A model generated the notes under the pieces. The model made no database searches. It worked only from the letters and a program-made list of their open reading frames with translations, and had not been told where the DNA came from. A stretch of DNA of 22,314 nucleotides, taken from Candidatus Eiseniibacteriota bacterium. GTDB lineage: Bacteria > Arandabacterota > Arandabacteria > JAGLYR01. Both the position numbers and the translations under genes were made by a program. The stretch covers positions 1 through 22,314 of the forward strand of contig JAGLYR010000236.1 in NCBI GenBank assembly GCA_023132135.1. Direction: 5' to 3'. This document shows positions 4,335 to 22,314 of this stretch, piece after piece. Position 1 is the first letter of the stretch; each line of letters begins with the position of its first letter.

Positions 4335-5372
4335 CTACACGATCTGTGATTCCGAGGTTGCCATCAGCGCTTTGTCCACCGGGCCCGGTTCCACGATCCG
4401 CACGATGTCTTCGTAGTTCGGGTGCCGGCCGAGAGCCACCTTCATGTAGAGCTCCTTGACCTCATCGAGCCGGTCCCACTGCTTCAGCTTGCGGCCATCC
4501 ACGCTCAGGATGTTGGTGAGACCCGCGGAGGTTCCCGTCTCGAACAGGCTGAGTTTCCCGCTGTTGATATGATCCTTGAATTCCTCGTACGGCGCCGACA
4601 CACGCCGGGTCTTGATACCCATTTCCTTCTCAAGAAGCATTTCCGTAGTCTGCTGTGTGATCCCGTTCAGATTGAAGTCCGAGGGCGGGATGAAGTGGAC
4701 TTCGTTCTCGTACACGAGGACCAGGTTCGATGTCGTACATTCGGTGACGAAGAAACCATCGCTGTCGGGCCGCCAACCGAGCACGATGCCATCGGCCATC
4801 CCGCCGCCCACATCCCCGGCGAATTTCCCATCAAAAATGTCCTTGGCCATGGACTTCATGGCTCCATACATAAGGTAATTCGCGTTGAACTTGTGATGAT
4901 AGCCCAGAATCCGCGGGTACTTGACGGGGGATACTCCTTCCCTGATCGAATCATCCTCAGGAAGCACGACGAGATGAACTCCCTCGGCTGGATGGTAGCC
5001 CCCCGTCGCCTCCATGAACACCGTGAATCGACCCGCGGCGCCGAGAAGAGGCTTGATCCCGGCCTCTTCGTTGGCCGCGCTTACGTGGATATAGGAGGTC
5101 TCTTCCACACCGTTGGCGCGGACCGTGGCTACGATGGCCTTTTCGAGATCGTCTCCGGTCATCCCGTGATCCAGTTTCATCGCATCAGCTGTGCCCATCA
5201 GCCGCTCGATGTGGCGATCCAGAAACGGGAGAATCCACGCGCCCCGACTCTGATCCCAATGCGCCAGGAGACCCGTGAATGCCATGAATCCATACCGCGG
5301 CCCCTTCACCCGCTCAAAGGGTTCCTTGCCATCCAACGAGAGAAGCTTCCGACCGCGCCATACATATCGCAT
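4335..5372 (-). CDS. Class IV PLP aminotransferase, branched-chain (IlvE-like)
   Basis: The product is 345 aa, a usual length for branched-chain aminotransferases. The ATG is preceded by a strong GGAGGGAGG ribosome site 6 nt away. Family marks are GLLAHW and DRHIERL near residues 34-58, the PLP lysine in HHKFNANYL (Lys161), the conserved Glu211 in VTECTTSNL, and NLNGIT (235-239). These enzymes move the amino group between Leu/Ile/Val and 2-oxoglutarate in the cytoplasm. The Lys-to-Glu section holds a Gly-rich stretch (GDVGGGMADGIVLGW) where relatives usually read GyDEALlld. Substrate could therefore differ; a D-amino-acid or aminodeoxychorismate lyase role is less likely at this length. It lies 156 nt downstream of the OPT transporter on the same strand, with two palindromes between them. 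Confidence 0.85.
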   Translation of the reverse strand: MRYVWRGRKLLSLDGKEPFERVKGPRYGFMAFTGLLAHWDQSRGAWILPFLDRHIERLMGTADAMKLDHGMTGDDLEKAIVATVRANGVEETSYIHVSAANEEAGIKPLLGAAGRFTVFMEATGGYHPAEGVHLVVLPEDDSIREGVSPVKYPRILGYHHKFNANYLMYGAMKSMAKDIFDGKFAGDVGGGMADGIVLGWRPDSDGFFVTECTTSNLVLVYENEVHFIPPSDFNLNGITQQTTEMLLEKEMGIKTRRVSAPYEEFKDHINSGKLSLFETGTSAGLTNILSVDGRKLKQWDRLDEVKELYMKVALGRHPNYEDIVRIVEPGPVDKALMATSESQIV

Positions 5373-5388
5373 TTATGTCCTCCCTCCA

Positions 5389-5436
5389 GCCTGGACGATA
5401 CACGAACCCTGCCCGGGCTTCGTGAACCATCCAGGC
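5389..5436. repeat. Imperfect inverted repeat related to the 4248-4297 palindrome
   Basis: Arms GCCTGGACGATACACGAA (5389-5406) and its partner (5419-5436) pair at 15 of 18 positions around a GC-rich centre. The outer GCCTGG, the inner TTCA/TTCG-GAA section and the central CCC/GGG match the plan of the 4248-4297 element. It lies just ahead of the aminotransferase ribosome site. Confidence 0.7.
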
Positions 5437-5463
5437 AGACCAATGAAAAAGCGCACCGAAGAT

Positions 5464-5497
5464 AAGGGGCTGAAGCCCGGGCGGGCTCCAGCCCCTT
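5464..5497. repeat. GC-rich hairpin between the OPT and aminotransferase genes
   Basis: AAGGGGCTG (5464-5472) pairs with CAGCCCCTT (5489-5497). After one mismatch, AGCCCG (5474-5479) pairs with CGGGCT (5482-5487), leaving a 2-nt centre. It follows the OPT stop codon by about 30 nt on the minus strand. No U-run follows directly, so it could be an attenuator, an mRNA-stabilising hairpin or another dispersed palindrome. Confidence 0.75.
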
Positions 5498-5528
5498 CTC
5501 CATTCGAACACAATCGCCCCGCGCCCGC

Positions 5529-7541
5529 CTATGTCACCGCGCTCGGCGGAGGCGGCTCGTCCGGGTCGCCCGCGGTCTTCACCGGGTAGTATACCAGCAC
5601 GAACCCCAGGATTACGAAGACGAAGAGACTCGTGATAAAAGACGGATTCTGGAAAACCGCCGGAACCTTGGTGTTCGCAAAAGCCATAGCGGCGAACACC
5701 AGACCCATCAGGGCCTCGCCCGCAATCAAGCCGGCGGCAACGAGAACTCCCGTGTTCATCACCCGCGTCTTCTGGGCGTCGTTGAAGTTCCGCTTCCGGC
5801 CAACCGTGTCGGCAACCCACCGGATGATCCCGCCGATGAAGATGGCAAAGGTCGTCTCAAGCGGAAGATACATCCCCACGCAAACGAGCATGGGGGATCT
5901 TACCTGCACCAGAATCAGAGCAATCGCCATCAGGATCCCGACGATGAGAAGTGGCCAGGCCATCTCTCCACCGACAATACCCTGCGAGAGAAGGGCCATG
6001 AGACCCGCCTGCGGCGCCGGGAGTGCCCGGCCACCGAAGCCCTGGCCTCCGGCGTTGATGTCTCCCTGGTGGAGGATCACCAGCGGAATGAACATCGTGA
6101 AGGAAGCCAGGACCACGCCGATGAAATCGCCAACCTGCATCTTCCACGGCGTCCCACCCAGTATGTGGCCCACCTTGAGGTCCTGGAGCATCTCGCCGGC
6201 CACGGCCGCCGCCACACAGATTACGGCCGCCACACCGAGAGTCGCTGCAACTCCGGGCGCCCCCTTCATCCCCAGGATCACCATGAGCAACGCCGCCACA
6301 ACCAGCGTTGAGAGTGTAAAACCGCTGATCGGATTGTTGCTCGAACCGAGGATTCCGACCAGATAGCCGGACACCGCAGCAAAGAAGAACCCGGCGATCA
6401 CCATCACGACGGTGGCCACCAGCGCAGCAAGCACGTTCTGAGCGAAGTAGTAGTAGACAAAGTAGGTGGCCACGGCGCAGACCACGATGCCGATGAACAC
6501 CCACTTGAAGCTAATGTCCTTCTCCGTGCGCTCTTCGGGCGCCTCCGCCGCTCCCGCCCTCTTCACGTCGTTTACCGCGCGCCCGAGCCCGGTTGCCAGG
6601 CTCTTCCTCATGCCATAGAGCGTGTAGGCCGCACTCATGAGCATCCCGCCGATTGCGATGGGACGAACCATGAACTTCCAGACCGAGAAGGCCATGTCGA
6701 TCCACTCGTGCTGTCCCCCGGCGCCGGTATGCTGGACCAGGTCGGGCCCCACGAAGTAGAGCAGGAGGGGAACAAAGAGCCCCCAGCTCAGGAGCCCGCC
6801 GCTGAAGTTGAGCGATGCAAGACCGGGCCCGATGATGTAGCCCACCCCCATGTAGGCCGGGCTGACCCCGGGTGTGGTGAGGAGCGCGCCTCCGGCGCCC
6901 TCGACCTTCGTGATCAGACCACCCGTGCCGGTCAAGAGGGAAACGGCCGACTTCTTGAAGAAAATGAACTTGTCCCACGATGCGGCAAAAACACTCAACT
7001 TGCCGAGTGTTTGAACGAGGGCGCCGAGGCCCATGGCGCCGAAGAGATACTTGGCGCCCGAGGCCCCACTTCGACCCGCCTTGTGAATCTCGCCGGCGGC
7101 CACCGACTCGGGGAACACCAGATCGGCGTCTTCCACCATCACCCGCCTGAGAATGGTCACAAAGAAGATTCCGATGAAACCGCCCACCAGCATGATGACC
7201 GACGCCTTCATGTAGTTTGCGACCGTGCCGAACTCCGTCCAGACACCGGCGAGGAAGAAGGCCGGAATCGTGAAAATGGCGCCTGCGGCTACCGATTCGC
7301 CGATGGAGCCTACCGTTCGTGCGAGGTTCTCTTCGAGGATCGTGCCTTTCCACAACCTGATCGCCGCCATTCCGATGACCGCGGCCGGATAGGTTGCCGC
7401 AATGGTCATTCCCGCCTTGAGACCGAGGTAGGCGTTGGCGGCTCCCAGGATAACACACATCACGAGACCCAGCAGAATCGCCCCGACGGAGAACTCCTTC
7501 ATCGAGGTCTCTGGCGGGACGAAGGGTTTGTATCTCGCCAT
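5529..7541 (-). CDS. OPT-family oligopeptide/metal-chelate transporter
   Basis: This is a polytopic membrane protein of 670 aa with roughly 14-16 hydrophobic segments, the normal size for OPT proteins. The start is placed at 7541 (MARYKPFVPPETSMKEFSVG) because AAGGAG lies 7 nt upstream. An in-frame ATG at 7634 would add 31 low-complexity residues and has no ribosome site. Family marks are the N-terminal TxxE-like opening, NAYLGLKAGMT, SGYLVGILGSSNNPISG, and LKVGHILGGTPWKMQVGD. OPT proteins couple proton entry to uptake of small peptides or peptide-like metal chelates across the inner membrane. The aminotransferase downstream fits use of imported amino acids, but cotranscription is not shown. 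A good promoter lies at 7688-7716. Confidence 0.92.
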   Translation of the reverse strand: MARYKPFVPPETSMKEFSVGAILLGLVMCVILGAANAYLGLKAGMTIAATYPAAVIGMAAIRLWKGTILEENLARTVGSIGESVAAGAIFTIPAFFLAGVWTEFGTVANYMKASVIMLVGGFIGIFFVTILRRVMVEDADLVFPESVAAGEIHKAGRSGASGAKYLFGAMGLGALVQTLGKLSVFAASWDKFIFFKKSAVSLLTGTGGLITKVEGAGGALLTTPGVSPAYMGVGYIIGPGLASLNFSGGLLSWGLFVPLLLYFVGPDLVQHTGAGGQHEWIDMAFSVWKFMVRPIAIGGMLMSAAYTLYGMRKSLATGLGRAVNDVKRAGAAEAPEERTEKDISFKWVFIGIVVCAVATYFVYYYFAQNVLAALVATVVMVIAGFFFAAVSGYLVGILGSSNNPISGFTLSTLVVAALLMVILGMKGAPGVAATLGVAAVICVAAAVAGEMLQDLKVGHILGGTPWKMQVGDFIGVVLASFTMFIPLVILHQGDINAGGQGFGGRALPAPQAGLMALLSQGIVGGEMAWPLLIVGILMAIALILVQVRSPMLVCVGMYLPLETTFAIFIGGIIRWVADTVGRKRNFNDAQKTRVMNTGVLVAAGLIAGEALMGLVFAAMAFANTKVPAVFQNPSFITSLFVFVILGFVLVYYPVKTAGDPDEPPPPSAVT

Positions 7542-7687
7542 TCCTGCGCTCCTTATTGAACTCCCATCCCCGGTGCCCGAGGATTCATCAGCAGCCCCGC
7601 CGGAACATGGTCCCGCCGGAACCCGTTCACTCATGATGTTGCCCGACGCCGCGCACCTATTGCTTCAAGAACCCGAACGTCCCGCCG

Positions 7688-11120: not shown

Positions 11121-12629
11121 TCACGGATCAAACGACCCCTTGTGCCGTCCGAACAGTCGCCCCACGAGGGCTTCTGTCGCAGGCCCACTGAAGTCATAGG
11201 TTGCAACACGGGTCATCGATCGACCCGGAGGCGGAAAGGCATTGGGGTTGAAAGCTGCGACCACAATGACCTTTGGGGCAGATTCGCAGGCCTCGATGAC
11301 CACTCTCTCCTGCCACGAGTCCAGCGGACCCCGGCTCAGCGTGAAAACGAGCGCCAGATCGCAGGCGCGGAAGGGTTCCGGATCCACAGCTTCGGGGGCC
11401 CGGGCCCTGATCAGACGAATACTCGGGTGCCTCGACACCAATTCCCGTTCGAGGAGATCACAGTCCACGGATCCCTCGGGAATCCCGGGATCGGGAACAA
11501 GAACCGCCAGACTCTCTTCCGGGTCCAGCGCGATGGGAATCAGACCGTCCGGATCTTCGAGGACCGCGATCCCACGCTCGCGTGGCCCCGCAAAGAGATC
11601 GTCCCCCTGCGGTAACGACAGACCGGGTATCTGGGACCTGAGGACACGGATCCTGGCGAGCGATTCCCGGACTCGGCTCTCCGCCAGGCGCCCGTCCGTG
11701 ATTGCTCCCAGCAGCACATCCCGCGCTTCCCAGGGTTTTTCGTCTCCCCCGGTAAAGAGCAGGAGATCCGCCCCGGCGCCCAGGGATCGAAGGGCCGCGT
11801 CTCCAGACGACGCCCGGCCGGCCACCGCAGCCATCTCCAGCGCATCCGTGATTACCGGGCCCGTGAAACCGAGTTCGTTTCTGAGAAGCCCCTCGATGAT
11901 CCGGCTCGAGAAGGTCGCAGGTTCGGCCTCCCGGCCGGTCACGGAGGGGAATGCCACATGGGCCGTCATCACCAAGTCCACGCCCCCCTCAATCGCCGAC
12001 ACAAAGGGCGGGAGGGAGCTTGCCCGGATCTCTTCCGTACTTCTCGTGTCAACGGGAAGCATCTTGTGGGAATCGAGGGTCGTCGAGCCGTGCCCCGGGA
12101 AGTGTTTGGCCGTGGCCGCCACCCCGCCTGCCTTAAGACCGCGGACTGTCGACACTCCCAGGCGAGTCACGAGCGCGGGATCGTCCCCGAATGAACGGGG
12201 ACCGATAACGGGATTTGCAATCTCGTCATTCACATCGAGACACGGAGCCAGGTTCAGATTCAGGCCGAGCGTTCGGAGACGGCTCCCAACTTCCCTGGCC
12301 ACCTCGAAGGCGACAGACTCCGAACCGATCGTTCCCAGGGCCATGGCTGCCGGCGCTGGATTCTCAAGCCCGAGGATGGGAGAAAGGAATCCGCCCTCTT
12401 CGTCGGCGCAGATAAGGAGCGGTGAGAAACCACCTTCTTCCGCCAATGCCTGGAGGCGTTTCGTCGTCTCCGAAACCGCATCGACAGAGTGTGCGTTTCG
12501 CCGAAACAGGATCACACCCGCCGGGGCCAGGTCGCAGAAGCGACGTTCCCGGCGGGGTGTGAGCGGGCCGGCCGGCAACCCAATCACCATCAGCTGCCCT
12601 ACTGCTCGCTTCAGACCCAGATCAGCCAT
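11121..12629 (-). CDS. nagZ: Beta-N-acetylhexosaminidase, glycoside hydrolase family 3 (NagZ type)
   Basis: The 502-aa product has no signal peptide, so it should be cytoplasmic. NagZ marks are KHFPGHG (175-181), DSH (186-188, His188 the general acid/base), and the nucleophile Asp262 in VITDALEM. It cleaves GlcNAc from GlcNAc-1,6-anhydroMurNAc during peptidoglycan recycling. Two points differ from the short form. First, the substrate-loop motif usually DQEGGRV reads DEEGGFL (76-82), so the usual Arg is missing. Second, it carries about 160 extra C-terminal residues, like two-domain Gram-positive NagZ and other GH3 enzymes. The activity is probably on GlcNAc-MurNAc sugars given its operon, but another hexosaminide is possible. 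It starts 26 nt after the SpoIID-like gene and is the last gene of the run. Its ribosome site is weak. Confidence 0.88.
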   Translation of the reverse strand: MADLGLKRAVGQLMVIGLPAGPLTPRRERRFCDLAPAGVILFRRNAHSVDAVSETTKRLQALAEEGGFSPLLICADEEGGFLSPILGLENPAPAAMALGTIGSESVAFEVAREVGSRLRTLGLNLNLAPCLDVNDEIANPVIGPRSFGDDPALVTRLGVSTVRGLKAGGVAATAKHFPGHGSTTLDSHKMLPVDTRSTEEIRASSLPPFVSAIEGGVDLVMTAHVAFPSVTGREAEPATFSSRIIEGLLRNELGFTGPVITDALEMAAVAGRASSGDAALRSLGAGADLLLFTGGDEKPWEARDVLLGAITDGRLAESRVRESLARIRVLRSQIPGLSLPQGDDLFAGPRERGIAVLEDPDGLIPIALDPEESLAVLVPDPGIPEGSVDCDLLERELVSRHPSIRLIRARAPEAVDPEPFRACDLALVFTLSRGPLDSWQERVVIEACESAPKVIVVAAFNPNAFPPPGRSMTRVATYDFSGPATEALVGRLFGRHKGSFDP

Positions 12630-12655
12630 TTGTTGCTCAGTATCGCGTTCATTGA

Positions 12656-13924
12656 CTACGAAACGGGCTTGTAGGGAATTCTCTCCAGGTGGATACCGGG
12701 GTAGTAGTGTTTGAGAATCTGATCATAGCGCTTGCCATCGCGCGACATCTGGATCGCGCCCTCCTGGCACAATCCCACCCCGTGGCCGAAACCGCGGCCC
12801 GTCGCGACAACCCGGCTCACGCGGCCGCCGGATCGCTTGACCTTGATCTTGAACCGCGCGCTCCAAAGAGCCTTCCCGTTTCCCGGCTGACGCAGAACCC
12901 ACCGGACCTTGTCGCCATGGATCCTGTGCTTCCCCCTGGTCGTGCGGATTTCCAGGGTCTTGACGCGTCCGCAGCGGTGGGTTCCCCGGACGCGGATGTC
13001 CTTGATTTCTCCCATCTCGATCTTTTTCCCCAGGGCCACCGGCAAACTCCTGGACAGGATCTTGGCCAGCTCCGCACCCTCCCACGTAACCGTCCACTTG
13101 AAGTATGGTGAGTTGCGGCAATAGGCCTCGTTGTTTTCCGATTTGCCCTGCGCACAATCCCGCACACCCCGGAGGTATGGTGCGTCCCCCTTCTCCCACA
13201 CATCGCGAATGGCTGCCGTCCGGCCGCCACAGGTGGAGCTGTAGTAGGCATCGATGAGCTTCCGCCGGTGAACAGCGACGATCCCTTCGGTTTCCAGGAT
13301 GGCCCGGTCGGACAGCCGGTGCTCCGCCGACTTGCCCTTGTATACCTGGTCTGCCACAGTTGCTACCAGATCGTAGTCCTCGCTCTTGCCATTGCCCAAG
13401 CGCTTCCGGGCATAGGTGCGGGCCGCTATCGCCTGCGCCTTCACCGCCTCAATCTTCTCTTCCTGAAGGTAGCCGATTTCACAGGGAACCACCCCCCTCA
13501 GGTACGACTCGATATCCAGAGCGTTGACTACCAGAATGCCGCTCCCTCCCCTGGCCAGGTTGATCTTCCCCCGGTAAGGTTTCCCGTTCACCGAGACGGC
13601 CGTCTGCCGATCCGTCCCCCCAACGTACAGCGGCAGGGGATGTTCGGAAGACGCTTCCTCGGCGGGTCGGAATACCCGGACCCGGCCGGACCCGGCCCAC
13701 TCTATCCGGACCGCCGCCCCACTCGGGAAAACGTCCGCAGGGCCGTTTCGTCCTGGAAACGACAAGCGGAAAGGCCCATCGGCACTGACGGTGACACTCG
13801 AGGCGTTCTCGACAAGGAGAACGCGAACCGCCGGAATTCCCGAGGGCGCCTTCCGCCACTTCTGCGCGGGAGCACATCCGGCAATGAAAGCAATCAGAAC
13901 AGCGATCTTCCAGTATCGATGCAT
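12656..13924 (-). CDS. SpoIID/LytB-domain lipoprotein, probable lytic transglycosylase
   Basis: The start at 13924 is preferred over in-frame ATGs at 13936 and 13954 because TGAGGA lies about 5 nt upstream and the protein then opens with a lipoprotein signal (MHRYWKIAVLIAFIAGC, lipid Cys17). It is 422 aa. The SpoIID domain shows ESYLRGVVPCEIGYL, with the likely catalytic Glu149, then EAVKAQAIAARTYARKRL, YYSSTCGGRTA, and the C-terminal GRGFGHGVGLCQEGA and ILKHYYPG. SpoIID of sporulating Firmicutes is a lytic transglycosylase that cuts stem-peptide-free glycan and leaves anhydroMurNAc ends. LytB-type relatives may instead stimulate amidases. Its place between anmK and nagZ favours the first role. 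It would be anchored in a membrane facing the cell wall. The protein is not evidence of sporulation. Confidence 0.85.
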   Translation of the reverse strand: MHRYWKIAVLIAFIAGCAPAQKWRKAPSGIPAVRVLLVENASSVTVSADGPFRLSFPGRNGPADVFPSGAAVRIEWAGSGRVRVFRPAEEASSEHPLPLYVGGTDRQTAVSVNGKPYRGKINLARGGSGILVVNALDIESYLRGVVPCEIGYLQEEKIEAVKAQAIAARTYARKRLGNGKSEDYDLVATVADQVYKGKSAEHRLSDRAILETEGIVAVHRRKLIDAYYSSTCGGRTAAIRDVWEKGDAPYLRGVRDCAQGKSENNEAYCRNSPYFKWTVTWEGAELAKILSRSLPVALGKKIEMGEIKDIRVRGTHRCGRVKTLEIRTTRGKHRIHGDKVRWVLRQPGNGKALWSARFKIKVKRSGGRVSRVVATGRGFGHGVGLCQEGAIQMSRDGKRYDQILKHYYPGIHLERIPYKPVS

Positions 13925-13940
13925 AGGTATCCTCATCACC

Positions 13941-15113
13941 CTACCCCGGTGCAATGTCTCCCAGGACCACGCTGCGCCGGGCGCCCGTCACCGCCGGCAC
14001 ATTGGACGGAATTCCATGGATCGTCTCGTTGGCCAGGACCGCAAAGGCAACAGCCTCCTTGGCATCGGAGGGCAGACCCAACTCCTCCAGCCGAACCACC
14101 GGAACGGGGTTCATCAGCACGGCCAGACGATCCATGAGGGTCCGGTTATGCACTCCTCCCCCGCTGACGATCATCCGCCCGAGATCTCCCATGTCTGTCA
14201 CGCAGAGTGCAATGGCCATGACAACGCTGCCGGCCGTGAGCTCCGTAACCGTAGCCAGCAGATCCTCATCGCTCGCCCCGAGCTCCCTGCCCGCGGCGAC
14301 GACTTCCTGAACGAAATGATCGCCGAAGGACTCCCTCCCGGCGGACTTGGGAGCCGCCTTCGCAAAATAGGAATGCCTGAGCAGACGGCTGAGGAGATCC
14401 GCAGTCACGGTACCGCGCGCAGCGCCCGCACCATCCCGGTCACACGCGACCTCTCCCCCACTCAGCAGCGCGGCCACACCATCGATTACCATGTTCCCGG
14501 GACCAGTATCAAATCCCAGAACCGCTCCGATGCCAAGTCCCCCGGGAAGAAGTGTCACGTTAGCGATCCCTCCCAGGTTCAGCATCACCCGGTTTTCTTC
14601 CCCGCTCCGGAAGAGGAGCCAGTCGACGTACGGCACGAGAGGCGCGCCCTGCCCCCCGGCGGCCAGATCCCTCGCCCTGAAGTTGGAAACCACGGTTACC
14701 CCGGTTTCTTCCGCTATCACTGCGCCCTCCCCAATCTGGAGAGTGCTCCCGTGGTCTCCATCCGGCAAGTGACAGACGGTCTGGCCGTGGGATCCGATGA
14801 GATCCACACCCCCTATTGAGCCGCCGGCCTTCTCCGCAACACGCCGCGCGGCCGCCACCGCCACGCCGGCCACCTCCACGTTCAGCCGGCAGAGCTCTTC
14901 GGTGGATCCGCCACCCAGACGGGCGGCCTCAAGCAGTCGCGCCCTGAGCTCGGCGGGGTAAGGCAACGTCTCGAATGCAAGAAGATCCACAGACGTTTCG
15001 GGGCCGGACCCACGAATCTCAACTGCGGCCGCATCCATCCCGTCCATGGACGTGCCGGAGCTCAGCCCGACCGCCCGCAGCGGTTCCTTCTTCAGGATCG
15101 AATCGAGAAACAA
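13941..15113 (-). CDS. anmK: Anhydro-N-acetylmuramic acid kinase
   Basis: This 390-aa cytoplasmic enzyme converts 1,6-anhydroMurNAc and ATP to MurNAc-6-phosphate. All main marks are present: GLSSGTSMDGMD (16-27, phosphate loop), SHGQT (108-112), the catalytic Asp149 in RDLAAGGQGAPLVPY, DTGPGN (202-207), KSAGRESF (256-263), and SGGGVHN near residue 328. Length fits the family. The start is a TTG preceded by GGAGG 5 nt away; the only nearby upstream ATG is out of frame and no later Met would keep the phosphate loop. It follows the second permease by 79 nt and precedes the SpoIID-like gene by 16 nt. MurQ, the next enzyme of the pathway, is not in the window. Confidence 0.96.
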   Translation of the reverse strand: MFLDSILKKEPLRAVGLSSGTSMDGMDAAAVEIRGSGPETSVDLLAFETLPYPAELRARLLEAARLGGGSTEELCRLNVEVAGVAVAAARRVAEKAGGSIGGVDLIGSHGQTVCHLPDGDHGSTLQIGEGAVIAEETGVTVVSNFRARDLAAGGQGAPLVPYVDWLLFRSGEENRVMLNLGGIANVTLLPGGLGIGAVLGFDTGPGNMVIDGVAALLSGGEVACDRDGAGAARGTVTADLLSRLLRHSYFAKAAPKSAGRESFGDHFVQEVVAAGRELGASDEDLLATVTELTAGSVVMAIALCVTDMGDLGRMIVSGGGVHNRTLMDRLAVLMNPVPVVRLEELGLPSDAKEAVAFAVLANETIHGIPSNVPAVTGARRSVVLGDIAPG

Positions 15114-15144
15114 GGGTCCTCCATCGTCCCCCGTCGCAAATCCC

Positions 15145-15171
15145 CTTCGTGTTCTTCGTGCACTTCGTGGT
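15145..15171. repeat. Short tandem repeat, three CTTCGTGnn units
   Basis: CTTCGTGTT, CTTCGTGCA and CTTCGTGGT follow each other without gaps in the 79-nt space between the second permease gene and anmK. On the coding strand this reads as repeated CACGAAG. No hairpin or terminator is formed. Its function is unknown, and it may be a simple-sequence expansion. Confidence 0.8.
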
Positions 15172-15192
15172 TGGAGCTTTTTTGTCCTGTTC

Positions 15193-16005
15193 CTATCCCT
15201 TAACCGCGCCGGCGGTCAGCCCCGATACGATCTGCCGCTGGAACAGGAAGAACACTACCAGAACCGGAATCACCGACAGCACGGACCCGGCCATGAGACT
15301 ACCCCAGTCAATGCTGTACTGGCCCTGCGCATACAGAGCCAGTCCCACCGGGAGTGTCCGCATGTGCTCGCTGGCCGTCAGAATGAAGGGGTACAGGAAC
15401 GAGTTCCAGTTCAGAAGAAACGTGTTGATCCCCACCACGGCCAACACCGGTGCCAGCAACGGCATCACAATGCGGAAGAATACCACCGCTTCGCCCGCAC
15501 CGTCAATCCTTGCCGCGTCCTCAAGATCCGGCGGCACCGTCTGCAGGAACTGGTAGACGAGAAAGATGTTCAACGCGTCCACAAGGAAAGGCAGTGTCAG
15601 CGCCCAGTAGGAGTCAATTAGTCCCAGCCGCGCCATGAGGACGTAGAGAGGCACCATGGTCACCTGCTTGGGGATCATAAGCATCCCCAGCACCGTCCCC
15701 ATCACCAGTTTCGATCCGCGAGTCCGGAACCTGGCCAGCCCGTATGCCACCATTGACGCGAAAACCAGATTCCCGGCCACCACGAGAGTCGCCACGATGG
15801 AGGAGTTCAGAAAGAAGCGCGCGAACGCGCCGCCCGCCCAGACCTCCCGGTAGTGATCCAGCGTGGGCTGCCGCGGGAGGAGATCCGAGACCCCCCGTAG
15901 CACCGTGCCTTCGCCCCTGACGGACAGCGACACCATCCAGACGAGGGGGATGAGTGTCGTCAGCACAAAGAACACCAGCGCCAGTATGATGAGGATTCTT
16001 TTCAA
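15193..16005 (-). CDS. ABC sugar-transporter permease, MalG/UgpE type
   Basis: The product is 270 aa with six membrane segments. The binding-protein-dependent permease (EAA) loop is at 162-186: EDAARIDGAGEAVV, then FFRIVMPLLAP, which contacts the ATPase. The C-terminal FLLNWNSFLYPFIL and AYGLARFRTRG are typical of the MalG side of CUT1 sugar importers. The start is TTG at 16005 with GAGG 5 nt upstream. It gives the usual N-terminus MKRILIILAL, and no ATG lies before the first helix. It follows the MalF-type gene by 29 nt and pairs with that subunit in the inner membrane. The required ATPase gene is not in the window. Confidence 0.92.
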   Translation of the reverse strand: MKRILIILALVFFVLTTLIPLVWMVSLSVRGEGTVLRGVSDLLPRQPTLDHYREVWAGGAFARFFLNSSIVATLVVAGNLVFASMVAYGLARFRTRGSKLVMGTVLGMLMIPKQVTMVPLYVLMARLGLIDSYWALTLPFLVDALNIFLVYQFLQTVPPDLEDAARIDGAGEAVVFFRIVMPLLAPVLAVVGINTFLLNWNSFLYPFILTASEHMRTLPVGLALYAQGQYSIDWGSLMAGSVLSVIPVLVVFFLFQRQIVSGLTAGAVKG

Positions 16006-16034
16006 CCTAACCTCAATGTGTCAGGAAACCCGGC

Positions 16035-16913
16035 CTATTCTCCGACGGCGCGGCTGAACCGGAACGCGCGCAACTGCACCAGCGTCACTACAAAGAGGAT
16101 GGCAAACAGTGCATACGCAATGGCCGAACCGTATCCCATCCTCAGTTTATAGAAAGCCGTCTCGTACAGGTAGTACACCACCGTCAGCGTCCTGTTGAGC
16201 GGTCCCCCCTGCGTCATGACCACAATCTCGACAAACACCTGGAGCGACCGGATCGTGTTGATGACAACCACGAAGAGCAACATGGGACGGAGTCCGGGGA
16301 GCGTGATGTGCCACAACCTGGCCCACCAGCCGGCGCCGTCCACCTCCGCCGAATCGTAGATCTCACGGGGAATCGCCTTGAGACCCGCCAGCATCAGGAT
16401 CATGTAGTAACCGACCGCGGCCCAGACATCCATCGCCATGATAGCGGGCAGGGCAAAGTTCGGATCCTGCAACCACGCCTTCCCCCCAATCCCCAACCAT
16501 CCCAGGAACGCGTTGAGCATTCCAATCGGAGCATAGACGTAGCGAAAGATGAGGGAGACGACCACGAGGGAAATCACGGTCGGGACAAACAGGGCGGTCC
16601 GGAAAAACCCGCCCGCAGGGGGACGCGAGTGCAGCAGCAACGCCAGCGCCAGGGCAATTCCCGTGGTGAAGGGTATGGTCCCCATAGCGAAGAAGGCCGT
16701 GTTGCCCACCGACTGCCAGAAGGTCCCGTCAGCCGCGAGCTCGGCGTAGTTGGCCAAGCCCACCCAATGGGTGGCCCCTGGACGCGCCGGGTTGAAACGG
16801 CTGAAGCTCAGTCCCAGTGAGAAGAGAACCGGGAACAGACCAAAAGCAGCAAAGGTCACAAGCCAGGGAATGGTGAAGATGAATCCAGCACGTTCCTGGG
16901 ATGAAGGCGCCAT
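16035..16913 (-). CDS. ABC sugar-transporter permease, MalF/UgpA type
   Basis: The product is 292 aa with six membrane segments. The N-terminal ERAGFIFTIPWLVTFAAFGLFPVLFSLGLSF and WVGLANYAEL are classic for MalF/UgpA-type subunits without the large periplasmic loop of E. coli MalF. The EAA loop is at 187-211: YDSAEVDGAGWW, then ARLWHITLPGLRP. TQGGPLNRTLTVVYYLYETAF near the end is also typical of CUT1 sugar importers. It begins 12 nt after the binding-protein gene stops. The ribosome site is weak, so translation may depend on the upstream gene. Confidence 0.93.
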   Translation of the reverse strand: MAPSSQERAGFIFTIPWLVTFAAFGLFPVLFSLGLSFSRFNPARPGATHWVGLANYAELAADGTFWQSVGNTAFFAMGTIPFTTGIALALALLLHSRPPAGGFFRTALFVPTVISLVVVSLIFRYVYAPIGMLNAFLGWLGIGGKAWLQDPNFALPAIMAMDVWAAVGYYMILMLAGLKAIPREIYDSAEVDGAGWWARLWHITLPGLRPMLLFVVVINTIRSLQVFVEIVVMTQGGPLNRTLTVVYYLYETAFYKLRMGYGSAIAYALFAILFVVTLVQLRAFRFSRAVGE

Positions 16914-16925
16914 CAGAAATAGTCC

Positions 16926-18146
16926 CTAGTGCGTAGTCCGTAGTCCCACGATTTTCTCGATTTCCTCCTGCGCGCGGCGCAAAGCTTCCTCCGGCGAAAT
17001 CCGGCCGTAGAGCGCTTCTTCGATCCGTGCGTCCAGGATCTCTTCCATTTCCACCCAGCGTGGATGCGCCGGTGTGGTCCGCGCGGTGCGCATCTGCTCC
17101 ACGAAAACCCGGGCCTCGGGGCTAAGGGCGGTGTCGCCGGCCGGCTTCGAAGACGGCCAGACGGATTGTACCTGCGTGGCGATTCGCCACGCCTGCTCCG
17201 GTGAGACGAGGAACCGGGCCAGGTCCGACGCAGCTCGCTTCTGCGTCGAAGAAGCCGGAACCGCCAGCATTTCGGCCCCGCCGAAGGAAATGTGCCGGCC
17301 CGACGGGGTATCCGGTCGGGGAACGCGCGCGACGCCAAAATCCAGGTCCGGCGCGGCCTCGGGAATGCTCTTCAGGTTCCACGATCCCGAGATAATCATT
17401 CCGACGCGCCCCTCCCTGAACATCTGGTCGAGCATGGCCTGTTTCTCGATCAGGGATACCCCGGCCAGATCCAGAAAGAACCGGAGGGCCGCGAGGTTTT
17501 CCTCGGAATCAAAGACCACCGAGCCGTCATCGGCCAGGATCCGCCCCCCGTTGCTCCACGCGAAGGACATGAACTTCTTGTAGAGCACATGCCGCTCTCC
17601 CGCGTTGGCGCCGAAGCCATACACGTCCGGGCCCAGGTCGTCGACGAGCCGGGCTGCATCGTACAACTGGGACCATGTTTCAGGGGGACGTTCGGGATCC
17701 AATCCCGCCTCCTCGAAGAGACGCCGGTTGTAGAACAGGGCCCGGGTGCCAACCAGCCAGGGCAGAGCATACACACGGCCCGAGTGTAACCCCGGTTCAG
17801 TGAGGTGATACCGGGCCTCCAGCTGTTGCGGGTCCAGCGGCAGCTGCGAGAGCACTCCATCCGCAGCAAACCTCGGGACCCACGTGGACCCGATCTCGCA
17901 AAGATCGGGCGCCGTGTTGGATGCGAAGGCCATGACGATTTTCTCAAAGCCCGATTGCCAGGTCAACTGCTGGGATTCGACCTGCAGATCCGGGTGGAGA
18001 GCTTCGAAATCGTCCAGAATGGGTTGGATGACAGGCTTGGGCCAGAAGTGCCAGAAGACAACGGTCGTCTTGCCGGAACGGTCGCCGCCGCAGGAGCAAC
18101 CCAGGAGCACGATAAGAAGCGCTGCACACATCAACCATCGCGGCAT
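16926..18146 (-). CDS. ABC sugar-binding lipoprotein, solute-binding family 1
   Basis: The 406-aa product starts with a lipoprotein signal (MPRWLMCAALLIVLLGC, lipid Cys17). The mature part opens with TTVVFWHFWP, as CUT1 binding proteins do. It continues with IGSTWVPRFAADGVL, YALPWLVGTRALFYNRRLFEEAGL, PPETWSQLYDAA, and GRVGMIISGSWNL. It would catch a sugar outside the inner membrane and hand it to the two downstream permeases. The ligand cannot be read from sequence; several Trp residues suit stacking on a sugar ring. Gene neighbours point to a GlcNAc/MurNAc-type fragment. The last codons (GLRTTH) fall within a GTAGTCC-type repeat, so the tail may be an insertion product. No clear promoter is seen ahead of it; a terminator for the gene before lies at 18180-18213. 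Confidence 0.93.
   Translation of the reverse strand: MPRWLMCAALLIVLLGCSCGGDRSGKTTVVFWHFWPKPVIQPILDDFEALHPDLQVESQQLTWQSGFEKIVMAFASNTAPDLCEIGSTWVPRFAADGVLSQLPLDPQQLEARYHLTEPGLHSGRVYALPWLVGTRALFYNRRLFEEAGLDPERPPETWSQLYDAARLVDDLGPDVYGFGANAGERHVLYKKFMSFAWSNGGRILADDGSVVFDSEENLAALRFFLDLAGVSLIEKQAMLDQMFREGRVGMIISGSWNLKSIPEAAPDLDFGVARVPRPDTPSGRHISFGGAEMLAVPASSTQKRAASDLARFLVSPEQAWRIATQVQSVWPSSKPAGDTALSPEARVFVEQMRTARTTPAHPRWVEMEEILDARIEEALYGRISPEEALRRAQEEIEKIVGLRTTH
16934..16947. repeat. Tandem GTAGTCC heptamers at the 3' end of the binding-protein gene
   Basis: Two exact GTAGTCC units (16934-16940, 16941-16947) plus partial copies (TAGTCC near 16921, AGTGCGTAG before the first unit) cover the last codons of the binding-protein gene and its stop. 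Short low-complexity strings of this kind also occur in the anmK spacer of the same operon. The function is unknown. Confidence 0.6.
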
Positions 18147-18179: not shown

Positions 18180-18213
18180 AAAAAGACGGCCCCGACCGGC
18201 ATCGTCGGGGCCG
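18180..18213 (-). terminator. Intrinsic terminator after the secreted Cys-rich gene
   Basis: Read on the minus strand, a 9-bp stem (GGCCCCGAC with GTCGGGGCC, extended by one C-G pair) with a 7-nt loop is followed after two bases by five T residues (18184-18180). It lies about 30 nt after the stop of the Cys-rich gene and 34 nt before the binding-protein start, and so separates the two transcription units. Confidence 0.85.
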
Positions 18214-18240
18214 CCTGAAGCCTGCGCAGATAGTCTTCCT

Positions 18241-19023
18241 TTACTTCGAGGTCCGATAAAGGGCTTTCACGGTCGTCCACGTCGCGGGCTCCACTGAGGT
18301 CACGAGGTCACCGCCGTGCGTCCCCCCGAGCGCGCACCCGAAGCTATCCACAATCACGTCCTCGTCATAGCTAATCGCGCAGTCCAAAGTGTAGCTGTAG
18401 GGACTGGCCGGGTGGCTGAAAGCGCTCTCGCCGAAGACCAGACTAATCGGACTTCCATAGTCCGTGACTGCGGCGGTTCCGACGTAGAAGTAGGCAAACG
18501 GATAAATGAAGCAGTTGTACCGGGTGTCCGTCGGCGTCGTCATCTGCCAGCAGTCCCGGAGCTTGACGATGGTGGAAGCCTTGTTGCAGCCAGCCCCCGT
18601 CAGCGTTCCGGCAGCTGAGATGCAACCACCGCTGAAACAATTGCCCTGCACCAGCGTGTTCATCCCCGTGTCATCGGCGGTCCAGTCGAGCGAGGGGACC
18701 GGCGGAGATCCACGCGCAGTCGGCCAACCATCGATCACGAACTCCAGGCCGCTGATGCCGTGGCCTACGTCCGCACTACCAACCGCAGAGAAGTCATACG
18801 CGCAAAGCACGACATAGACTCCGTCGTAACTCGCGATCTCGGCGAGCGTGATGTCCTGGTCAACGTCATTCGTATTGATGAGCAGATCGGCGAAATCCGG
18901 GCCATAGAGGTATGCATCCGACGGGACGATGTGCATGCACAGTTTCACGTTCGGGTTTTGACCTCCCAGCACAACTGCCGGAACGGACAAAAGTAACAGG
19001 GAAATCAGCAACAGACGTCTCAT
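18241..19023 (-). CDS. Secreted cysteine-rich protein of unknown function
   Basis: The 260-aa product opens with a strong signal peptide (MRRLLLISLLLLSVPAVVLGG, cleavage near GG-Q). The ATG has AAAGGGG about 8 nt upstream. The mature part has nine Cys residues, several in close pairs (NCFSGGC), and is rich in Thr, Ser, Gly and Asp, as in exported beta-proteins held by disulfides. It opens with NPNVKLCMHIVPSDAYL and ends WTTVKALYRTSK. I recognise no domain or catalytic motif and assign no function. It has a predicted promoter and a terminator, so it is probably transcribed alone. There is no FlgD-like C-terminal domain, unlike the two big exported proteins in this window. Confidence 0.75.
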   Translation of the reverse strand: MRRLLLISLLLLSVPAVVLGGQNPNVKLCMHIVPSDAYLYGPDFADLLINTNDVDQDITLAEIASYDGVYVVLCAYDFSAVGSADVGHGISGLEFVIDGWPTARGSPPVPSLDWTADDTGMNTLVQGNCFSGGCISAAGTLTGAGCNKASTIVKLRDCWQMTTPTDTRYNCFIYPFAYFYVGTAAVTDYGSPISLVFGESAFSHPASPYSYTLDCAISYDEDVIVDSFGCALGGTHGGDLVTSVEPATWTTVKALYRTSK

Positions 19024-19245: not shown

Positions 19246-22200
19246 CTACCGGATTCTCATCGCCTTCTGGATTTCCGATTGGGCTTCCTTCCCCCCACCT
19301 CTCGCAATCACCCTGTAGAGGTAAACTCCGTTGGCCACCTCGTCGCCGTCGTTGTCCCTCCCGTTCCAATAGATTCGGTTGTATCCATTCTCACCTTTAG
19401 TGACAAATGTTGCCAATTTTTTCCCGGCAACAGTGAAGATCCTGATCTCGATGTCCGCAGGAACCGTGAGTTGGAAAATAATGTCCGTTCCATCCTGGAA
19501 GGGATTGGGATAGTTGGTCAGATTTCGCACCGCCAGTTCCCCTTCCAGCACGAACCGGAGAGCGTCCGTCCGGACCTCGCCAACAAGAAGCTGGAGCGTG
19601 TGGCGTCCCTCCGCTAACCCCTCCAGCGCGAATCGCAACCGCCACTGAGTGCTGTCAGGACCCAGAGCTTCACGGACAATATCCGGCGCCCACTCGCCGC
19701 CCGCGCCCTGCACCAGCACAGCGAGATCGCCCGCCGGGACCGCCATAGGCAAACTGATACCCATCTCAACCTCCGCACCGGGGCTCACGTAGTCGCCGTC
19801 GAAAGCCCGGACTCCATCGAAGAACACCTCGTTGGAGAATCGTACCTTGAGGGTGAAGGTCCTCAGGAGTCCGTTGCGATCCCGGGCCTCGAAGACGATG
19901 TCGTACTCGGCGATCTCCACGCCATGCCGGTACTCGGCGACGACCAACCGCCCTCCGGAAACGGAGTCCGCCACTGCCAGGGTGTAGTCCACTCCCCGGG
20001 CCAGCGTCTGAATGCTTGTCCCCTTCCGAATGAGAACTCGTACCGACGACGTATCCACGGCCACTTCGTCCCCGATCACGGCCCGGATGCAGACCCGCTC
20101 CGAATGTCCGGAGGAGGTGAGGAAATCGCCATCCTCCACCGTAGTTCCGTCTACCGTCACAGCAAAACCGGGGGGCAGAGCATCGATCCGGAGCGCGGGA
20201 TCGCCGAGGATGACAATACGGTAGGCGGGCTCGTCGTAGCCGCCCAGAAGAATCATGGATGCCCCCAGCTCCCCCAGGAGCCACCGCGTCCCAACCGTAT
20301 CGCCCCCGGCCGAGACCCAGGGAGGAGTGTCGAAAAACACGTCCGCCAGAGCCATCTGATACGACCGCGCTATCCGGTATTCCTCGTATCCCACAGGACC
20401 CATCCCGGCGATCGCTCCTCCGTCGGGGAACAGGAGCATTTTCTCCACCAGCGACTCCTGCCACTCCACGGAGTTCTCCTCCACCTGGCTGAAATCAGCG
20501 AAATGGCACCCGAATGTCGCCAGGATAAAGGGACGTCCGTCATTGGAGAGTCGTTCTGCGATGTCGTGGTTATACCGGCCGTCAATGTACACACCATCCA
20601 CAACGATGTGCTCATGCGCCATGACGGTCCGATTGCCGTGCCCCTGGAACTGGAACATCAACACACCGTCGTTCAGGATGTCAAAAAGGGCCGGGGTGAG
20701 GGAATCCCGCACGACGGCTCTCATACAGCGGAGATTCAGATCCGCGCCGTCCAGACACGCCAGATGCCAACCTTCGTATGCGCTGTACCCCGTGTACTCG
20801 CTCATGTGGAGGGCGATGGTGTCCAATGGAGCGCCGGTGGACTCCGCAGCCCGGGAGAGCGTGTACCGGCAGGCCCCTTCGAAGCGATCCTCCCCGGCCC
20901 GGTTGCACAGGTAGTCCGAGGAAGCCGTGGTGGAACACCGGTCGTCGCTCACGGCCAGAAACCGGCCCCGCCACGCGTCGCCGGGATCGAACTGTTCGTA
21001 CGCGATGATCTTGTCGATCAGGTCTTCCAGCTCCGGAACCGAGCCGACCGGCAGCCGGCCCAGGTAGATGTCCAGCGTGTAGTCATCGTCCAGATCCACA
21101 TACCAGTTGTCACCCGGGGTCGGCTCATTCACCCACATGAAGTGCGGGGGAGGAATGAAATCCGGGCCGCTGTCCGCGTGCAAACCTCTGTGGTCGTCGC
21201 TCCCATCTCCTACGAGAACCGCGAACTGGGGCCGCACAGTCCAGTGATCGAAAGCCCACCGGAGGTACCGTTTGATGGCCAGGGGATCCTTCATTCCGCC
21301 GCTGAAGGCATCATACACCTCATCCACCCGGACCACCTGGACCTGCAGGCCCTGCCCCCGCCGGTAGGACGCCAGCCTCCGGCATTCCTCCTCGAATTCC
21401 TCGTGGGTGATGAGAAGGTAGTCTCCCTCCCGGAGCCAACACGGATTCTCCACGCCTGTTCTCTGGAACTCACCCTCGACCTTTCTCGCCGACCGGGGAG
21501 TGAACGCGACGTACGTCTTGCGGACCGCCGTGCTCTCGGGGAAAACGAGGCGGTAGTCTCCTGCCGTACCAAGGACCTGCCCCTCGCCGAGGTTCACCCA
21601 CACGGGCTGAGCCGGATCGGAAACCTCAGCGAGGCGGATTTCGGTATCGCCGAATCCCTCGACCTGGACAGTCCCCTCGCCCAGGTGTCCCGTGTTGAAG
21701 ACCAGGTAGTCATCACGCGCTGTCAGGCTGCGGTCGTACCAGACCGTGATCCAGTCGAGGAATGCTCCGAAGGCGCTCTTGCCACCGAACTGAAAGTAGT
21801 TGGTCCCGTGTGTCAGGAATCCGGCGGGGAGAGAATCTCCCGTGTCGTAGAAGTACTCGCTTTCCTCCGCGAAGGACTGTGGACCAAGGGCATGGATCTG
21901 ACTCTGGGCATTCACAAGCATTGGGGCTACCGAGTGAGTTCCTTTGATGTACCCCTGGAAACGGATCCGCAATCGGGCAGTGGAGTCGGGGACCGGATCG
22001 TAGAGCTCGAAGGGGAGGGATCCTCCCGATGCCGTGCGGCTGGTCCAGTACCACCAGTCCACATCGCTCCGGGGCGGGATGCCGTCGATATCGACGGTGG
22101 TGGGAGTGTGCCAATTGTGCCGGTCCTCCTCGTAGAAAAGCTCTTCGGCGAAATGACTGAGGGTGTCGACCGGCTCACCCGTCCAGACCTCGGCCGTATC

Positions 22201-22314
22201 CATCCGCTCTCCGCCCGATTCCCCCCAACCTATCCAGTACACATTCCTGTCCGCGTAACGATCCTCGAAATCATGGACCATGAACTGGTCCCGGAATCCC
22301 AGCGCCCAGAAGTA
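19246..22314 (-). CDS. Secreted C25 (gingipain/PorU-type) cysteine protease with FlgD-like C-terminal domain, 5' partial
   Basis: The reading frame stays open to the right edge of the window (YFWALGFRDQF precedes the first internal Met at 22281), so the start and signal peptide lie outside; 1022 residues are visible. Numbered from that Met, the N-terminal ~270 residues look like the C25 pro/beta region (NVYWIGWGESGGERM). The protease core holds YLLITHEEFEEECRRLASYRR, VLVGDGSDDHR, YLGRLPVGS, the catalytic His548 in FQFQGHGNR, and the nucleophile Cys592 in LATFGCHFADF. The last ~90 residues form a FlgD-like/type IX-like domain (NYPNPFQDG, IFTVAGKKLATF, NGVYLYRV, MRIR). Relatives include gingipains and the PorU sortase. 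Whether this one acts as sortase or general protease cannot be told. No terminator is seen after the stop. Confidence 0.88.
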   Translation of the reverse strand, partial: YFWALGFRDQFMVHDFEDRYADRNVYWIGWGESGGERMDTAEVWTGEPVDTLSHFAEELFYEEDRHNWHTPTTVDIDGIPPRSDVDWWYWTSRTASGGSLPFELYDPVPDSTARLRIRFQGYIKGTHSVAPMLVNAQSQIHALGPQSFAEESEYFYDTGDSLPAGFLTHGTNYFQFGGKSAFGAFLDWITVWYDRSLTARDDYLVFNTGHLGEGTVQVEGFGDTEIRLAEVSDPAQPVWVNLGEGQVLGTAGDYRLVFPESTAVRKTYVAFTPRSARKVEGEFQRTGVENPCWLREGDYLLITHEEFEEECRRLASYRRGQGLQVQVVRVDEVYDAFSGGMKDPLAIKRYLRWAFDHWTVRPQFAVLVGDGSDDHRGLHADSGPDFIPPPHFMWVNEPTPGDNWYVDLDDDYTLDIYLGRLPVGSVPELEDLIDKIIAYEQFDPGDAWRGRFLAVSDDRCSTTASSDYLCNRAGEDRFEGACRYTLSRAAESTGAPLDTIALHMSEYTGYSAYEGWHLACLDGADLNLRCMRAVVRDSLTPALFDILNDGVLMFQFQGHGNRTVMAHEHIVVDGVYIDGRYNHDIAERLSNDGRPFILATFGCHFADFSQVEENSVEWQESLVEKMLLFPDGGAIAGMGPVGYEEYRIARSYQMALADVFFDTPPWVSAGGDTVGTRWLLGELGASMILLGGYDEPAYRIVILGDPALRIDALPPGFAVTVDGTTVEDGDFLTSSGHSERVCIRAVIGDEVAVDTSSVRVLIRKGTSIQTLARGVDYTLAVADSVSGGRLVVAEYRHGVEIAEYDIVFEARDRNGLLRTFTLKVRFSNEVFFDGVRAFDGDYVSPGAEVEMGISLPMAVPAGDLAVLVQGAGGEWAPDIVREALGPDSTQWRLRFALEGLAEGRHTLQLLVGEVRTDALRFVLEGELAVRNLTNYPNPFQDGTDIIFQLTVPADIEIRIFTVAGKKLATFVTKGENGYNRIYWNGRDNDGDEVANGVYLYRVIARGGGKEAQSEIQKAMRIR

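Follow-up and report, generated by a model that had tools for sequence, protein, structure and literature searches.

A putative peptidoglycan recycling operon with a CUT1-type ABC importer in Candidatus Eiseniibacteriota

How do cell wall sugars return to the cytoplasm in bacteria that have the enzymes to recycle them, and none of the recognised transporters? Many bacteria have AnmK, NagZ and MurQ but no recognised means of importing the substrates: in a sample of 98 genomes, AnmK was found in 39 and AmpG above its family cut-off in five. The wall-sugar importers described to date are AmpG, of the major facilitator superfamily (MFS), MurP, of the phosphotransferase system (PTS), MurT and, among ATP-binding cassette (ABC) transporters, the peptide-type YejBEF-YepA (PMC9790009, PMC13204101). 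Here we analyse a 22,314-nucleotide (nt) stretch of DNA from a Candidatus Eiseniibacteriota bacterium (GCA_023132135.1, JAGLYR010000236.1; "the window"), which is the entire contig C153 of a 3.4-Mb genome assembled into 345 contigs and about 96% complete; by its named relatives the genome belongs to Candidatus Eisenbacteria. (In what follows G-numbers denote genomes, L-numbers loci, and C-numbers contigs of this genome.) Six co-directional genes on the minus strand of the window encode MalE-, MalF- and MalG-type proteins, AnmK, a SpoIID/LytB lipoprotein and a NagZ-type GH3 enzyme. We consider it quite probable that these genes form a peptidoglycan recycling operon in which a CUT1 (MalEFG-type) ABC importer takes the role that AmpG has in E. 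coli.

In the direction of transcription, the genes are malE (16926–18146), malF (16035–16913), malG (15193–16005), anmK (13941–15113), spoIID (12656–13924) and nagZ (11121–12629), separated by gaps of 12, 29, 79, 16 and 26 nt. The 16-nt gap presumes that spoIID starts at the ATG at 13924; an alternative TTG start at 13954 would give a longer form that overlaps anmK by 14 nt. An earlier, sequence-only reading of this DNA had proposed the same genes, gaps and recycling function, and Pfam and NCBIfam agree with its gene identities, for NagZ with a shortfall that is weighed below. That reading had also singled out the 79-nt gap as a place where a promoter might drive the last three genes alone. 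No promoter-like site was found there, in a scan that is weak for this phylum, and the spacing between malG and anmK varies among relatives, from an overlap of 4 nt to a gap of 148 nt. All six genes are probably cotranscribed.

The three enzymes carry the features expected of their families. AnmK (PF03702, 2e-104) scores 457 bits against the 387-bit cut-off of the equivalog model NF007148, retains the FDTGPGN motif and the conserved D202 when aligned to solved AnmK, and has no signal peptide. The SpoIID/LytB protein, a predicted lytic transglycosylase, matches the SpoIID Pfam family (9e-20) and the SpoIID_LytB model TIGR02669 (212 bits; cut-off 83), and in an alignment with solved SpoIID the Glu of its VVPCEIG motif pairs with a Glu that we take to be E88 of the B. 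subtilis protein. NagZ (PF00933, Glyco_hydro_3, 3e-70) keeps both catalytic motifs, the KHFPGHG-DSH dyad and the ITDALEM motif with its Asp nucleophile; the closest solved chain is 6k5j, a GH3 beta-N-acetylglucosaminidase (1e-75), and comparison with solved chains places it nearer to two-domain GH3 N-acetylglucosaminidases. Since it lacks a signal peptide, NagZ should act inside the cell, on an imported disaccharide.

The transporter has the composition of a CUT1 importer: a 406-amino-acid binding lipoprotein of the SBP_bac_1/8 type (SBP_bac_1, 5e-37) and two BPD_transp_1 permeases, MalF (6e-15) and MalG (8e-14), with the EAA-loop motifs DSAEVDGA and DAARIDGA. The N-termini of MalE and SpoIID are lipoprotein-like, with an LLGC lipobox-like sequence in the former and an IAGC lipobox in the latter. 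In Pfam, MalE matches SBP_bac_1/8 only and not the peptide-type, SBP_bac_5-like family of YejBEF-YepA. Its AlphaFold model, with a predicted local distance difference test score of 93, has a CUT1 oligosaccharide-binding fold, and the best fold matches by Z bind beta-linked gluco-oligosaccharides. The modelled fold fits a beta-1,4 disaccharide ligand, without proving one. The structural comparison that the sequence-only reading had proposed gives the class of fold; as a way to name the ligand, the fold search did not discriminate.

Two components that this reading had noted as absent from the window, MurQ and an ATPase, are both encoded elsewhere in the genome. MurQ (378 bits; cut-off 302) lies on contig C154, between a complete C25 peptidase gene and another of which the contig end leaves only the N-terminal part. 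At its right-hand edge the window carries a C25-type peptidase gene truncated by the contig end (19246–22314, minus strand). Aligned to a complete paralogue, the two halves cover residues 15–273 (C154) and 328–1360 (window), without overlap and on compatible strands. Because the halves complement each other, C154 very probably abuts the window, which would place murQ upstream of malE. The order C25 peptidase-MurQ-MalE is found in relatives (L034/L076, L077, L087), where MurQ usually heads the operon. The genome encodes a single MalK-type ATPase (OB_MalK/TOBE_2), on the short contig C75 with no permease linked to it; this ATPase may serve the importer. There are two MalG-type permease genes in the genome, the other belonging to a generic, unlinked importer on C205.

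Two parts of the E. coli route were not found. The best match to AmpG (TIGR00901) in this genome reaches 23 bits against a cut-off of 350, and none of seven class-mates has one above cut-off. The Amidase_2/AmpD family (PF01510) gave no match in the genome or its class-mates, while control genomes gave matches. A MurP-type PTS EIIBC is absent from the window operon and from the surroundings of murQ, the parts of the genome searched for it. The lack of an AmpD-family amidase and the sugar type of the importer suggest that the imported fragment is peptide-free.

If this importer serves recycling, its genes should stay with the recycling genes, and a MurQ-MalE-MalF-MalG-AnmK-SpoIID(-NagZ) order does recur across Candidatus Eisenbacteria. 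In the bacterium's own class, malEFG and anmK are adjacent at every resolvable locus (G001, G002, G004 and G006; in G007 the locus breaks off where the contig ends, and AnmK gave no match in G003 or G005). One of these genomes, G006, holds the importer-anmK cluster in two separate copies (L036, L037). In the class of G202, which includes the complete chromosome CP070702.1 of Candidatus Eisenbacteria bin56, AnmK is present in 33 of 47 genomes. As far as contig ends allow, 18 of these 33 have the importer between MurQ and AnmK, seven have only a MalE-like gene there and no permeases, and six have no importer beside anmK; the remaining two could not be resolved. Among the six, G397 carries an orthologous MalG on the edge of another contig. 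AnmK is followed by SpoIID in nearly all genomes of this class, and the full seven-gene order, with MurQ first and NagZ after SpoIID, is seen at L206, L208 and L209. In most relatives the importer thus remains beside the anmK-spoIID genes, the opposite of the separation that would have spoken against a joint function.

Chance adjacency can be ruled out: a CUT1 gene occurs within 3 kb of AnmK at only one of 87 loci from other lineages, and the genome has just two MalG-type genes. Within the same distance, those 87 loci have SpoIID in 10 cases, NagZ in 19 and MurQ in 18. Many unrelated lineages carry a SpoIID-domain gene next to anmK, with or without an importer (L042, L061, L116, L123, L134, L135, L136, L144, L157 and L160), a link of which we found no report. 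The lone MalE-like genes between MurQ and AnmK (L173, L197, L199, L200, L201, L203 and L204) are quite diverged at L199 and L201. We considered whether the permeases of such genomes had been relocated; the CUT1 set of G406 (L239), the one checked, scores as generic and not as the anmK-linked subfamily.

What, then, may replace the importer where it is missing? In family f176 of the class of G202, all ten resolved genomes without permeases (G332, G405, G406, G407, G409, G413, G415, G416, G420 and G421) encode an MFS protein that scores 147–198 bits against the AmpG family model, whereas none of the five importer-bearing genomes (G202, G404, G410, G411 and G417) does (Fisher p = 3e-4). Across the whole class, an AmpG-like MFS protein is found in 11 of 12 genomes without the importer and 1 of 18 with it (p = 2.5e-6; exceptions G389 and G422); these p values come from draft genomes and ignore relatedness. 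The AmpG-like proteins that were fetched group with AmpG to the exclusion of a second, weaker MFS type (100/100). This second type (100–140 bits) was set aside as a substitute, being outside the AmpG branch. The AnmK tree intermingles genomes with and without the importer, which sit close together in several parts of it (G202 and G416, for instance, at 98/96), and it needs six state changes, of which well-supported branches force four. Within f176, the importer was lost several times independently. Such repeated exchange would be expected of two transporters with a common cargo.

A second association of this kind exists outside Eisenbacteria. In the small phylum to which G031 belongs, each of the three genomes encodes, in a row, a MalE-MalF fusion, MalG, SpoIID, NamZ, NagZ, AnmK and Amidase_3 (L044, L100 and L101); NamZ and NagZ are also part of the MurP-MurQ cluster of B. 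subtilis. In the MalG tree, in which some branches are long and exact sister relations unsure, the Eisenbacteria-type permeases cluster together (93/90) beside lone importers of Riflebacteria and Zixibacteria, and a 99/97 split separates this set from the G031 group, which lies among generic CUT1 permeases. Since the G031 importer is not orthologous, the tree suggests that two different CUT1 branches became tied to the same recycling genes and that the association has at least two origins. A Paenibacillus-like genome of 7.3 Mb may hold a third, unrelated to these: there AnmK, an RpiR-type regulator, MurQ, a BadF-type, MurK-like kinase and CUT1 MalE-F-G-K lie together (L130:6710-15001).

These observations lead to the following model. 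Amidases would remove stem peptides outside the inner membrane, and the SpoIID-type lipoprotein would cleave the denuded glycan strands to N-acetylglucosamine (GlcNAc)-1,6-anhydro-N-acetylmuramic acid (anhydroMurNAc). The MalE-type lipoprotein would bind this disaccharide and MalFG would import it, powered by the shared MalK-type ATPase encoded elsewhere. NagZ would then remove GlcNAc, AnmK would convert anhydroMurNAc to N-acetylmuramic acid (MurNAc)-6-phosphate, and MurQ would turn this into GlcNAc-6-phosphate. The SpoIID step has precedent in B. subtilis SpoIID, which acts on peptide-free glycan strands, and in a chlamydial homologue that is both a lytic transglycosylase and a muramidase (PMC6635528). 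In its full form, with peptides taken off outside, a bare disaccharide made by SpoIID, and a CUT1 importer that was recruited at least twice and has swapped places with an AmpG-like MFS protein again and again, we favour this model by a modest degree.

Several findings weigh against a recycling importer. The exchange pattern was noticed post hoc, the MFS proteins involved score below the AmpG cut-off, and G422, one of the genomes with the importer, encodes an AmpG above it as well. The products that the chlamydial SpoIID makes from denuded glycan are mostly non-anhydro (PMC6635528). NagZ, at 184.8 bits, falls just below the 207-bit cut-off of the equivalog PRK05337. The MalE fold does not single out a muropeptide, as its close matches bind ordinary beta- and alpha-glucans. 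Finally, the closest importers outside Eisenbacteria, those of Riflebacteria and Zixibacteria, have no recycling genes adjoining, so the importer subfamily need not be muropeptide-specific. These lone importers (L079–L085 and L088 in Riflebacteria, L090–L093 in Zixibacteria) have no sugar genes beside them, and in some MalE is fused to MalF.

The alternative that survives best, one we regard as possible but doubtful, is that the same pathway scavenges the peptidoglycan of other, dead bacteria and does not recycle the cell's own wall. A secreted C25-type peptidase before MurQ, in this genome and its relatives, would fit feeding on debris, as would lipoproteins such as SpoIID and MalE that look exposed outside the inner membrane. 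However, the pathway has no need of C25 peptidases, the operon was recorded in the class of G202 with no regard to them, and gene content would be alike for both uses.

It is unlikely that the importer takes up single MurNAc or anhydroMurNAc units, with NagZ working on other substrates or outside. The convergent G031 operon lends this idea some weight, as its NamZ is an exo-muramidase that releases the MurNAc monosaccharide; in the window operon, however, there is no NamZ, and a NagZ without signal peptide points to a disaccharide entering the cell. We give still less credence to an importer of GlcNAc, chitobiose or another ordinary oligosaccharide that merely shares its regulation with the recycling enzymes. 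MalE does resemble solved binders of cello-oligosaccharides and other glucans and weakly matches the NgcE model, and NagZ-type GH3 enzymes can also split chitobiose (PMC6987092). Yet the importer genes are flanked by MurQ and AnmK, which act on MurNAc derivatives, the operon encodes neither a chitinase nor another sugar kinase, the importer and an AmpG-like protein replace one another, and AmpG is missing although AnmK needs imported anhydroMurNAc. That the AnmK homologue phosphorylates a different 1,6-anhydro sugar brought in by the importer, such as levoglucosan, is very improbable: levoglucosan kinase is its second-best solved relative (226 bits, against 242 for the best), but the equivalog score is above cut-off and the linked MurQ, SpoIID and NagZ play no part in levoglucosan use.

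As a recycling system, the operon would share with the AmpG-NagZ-AmpD-AnmK-MurQ system of E. coli the import of an anhydro-sugar wall fragment and the NagZ, AnmK and MurQ steps, and would differ in using a CUT1 ABC transporter in place of an MFS protein, in lacking an AmpD-family amidase, with a fragment that is probably peptide-free, and in having its genes in one operon. As in Agrobacterium, where YejBEF-YepA handles muropeptides (PMC9790009), an ABC importer would take AmpG's place; that importer is of the peptide type, whereas the one described here is of the SBP_bac_1/8 CUT1 sugar type and its genes lie within the recycling operon. The MurP-MurQ operons of Bacillus subtilis and S. aureus (PMC5061867) likewise couple uptake to MurQ, but there the PTS phosphorylates MurNAc during uptake, while here uptake would be by an ABC transporter and phosphorylation by AnmK. 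CUT1 importers of chitobiose (DasABC, NgcEFG) and cello-oligosaccharides (CbpB) have the same subunit make-up and binding-protein fold, and a shared MalK-type ATPase such as the importer described here may also use; the genes described here are linked to MurQ, AnmK, SpoIID and NagZ and not to chitin or cellulose genes.

ABC-mediated peptidoglycan recycling is already known, and what would be new is a CUT1 sugar-type importer in that role. A search of open-access papers gave no report of a CUT1 muropeptide importer; subscription papers lay outside the scope of this search and may contain an earlier mention. If the model is right, such an importer would close the importer gap in several lineages, would be a third type of transporter for anhydro-muropeptide sugars beside MFS and peptide-type ABC proteins, and would recycle only sugars. 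The model can be tested plainly by ligand binding to a single soluble protein.

Some further features of the window deserve mention. Just upstream of malE, on the same strand, is a terminator-like hairpin of 13 pairs with a T-rich tail (18184–18216; a consensus match only), which separates malE from a gene at 18241–19023. This gene encodes a predicted secreted protein of 260 amino acids with no Pfam match, and has relatives elsewhere in the genome (L033:10058-10885 and L033:13141-15198). The C25-type peptidases that flank murQ and precede the importer genes (19246–22314 in the window; L033:1-6275) have FlgD-like C-termini. At 4335–7634, on the minus strand, a gene for an OPT-family oligopeptide transporter lies beside one for a class-IV aminotransferase.

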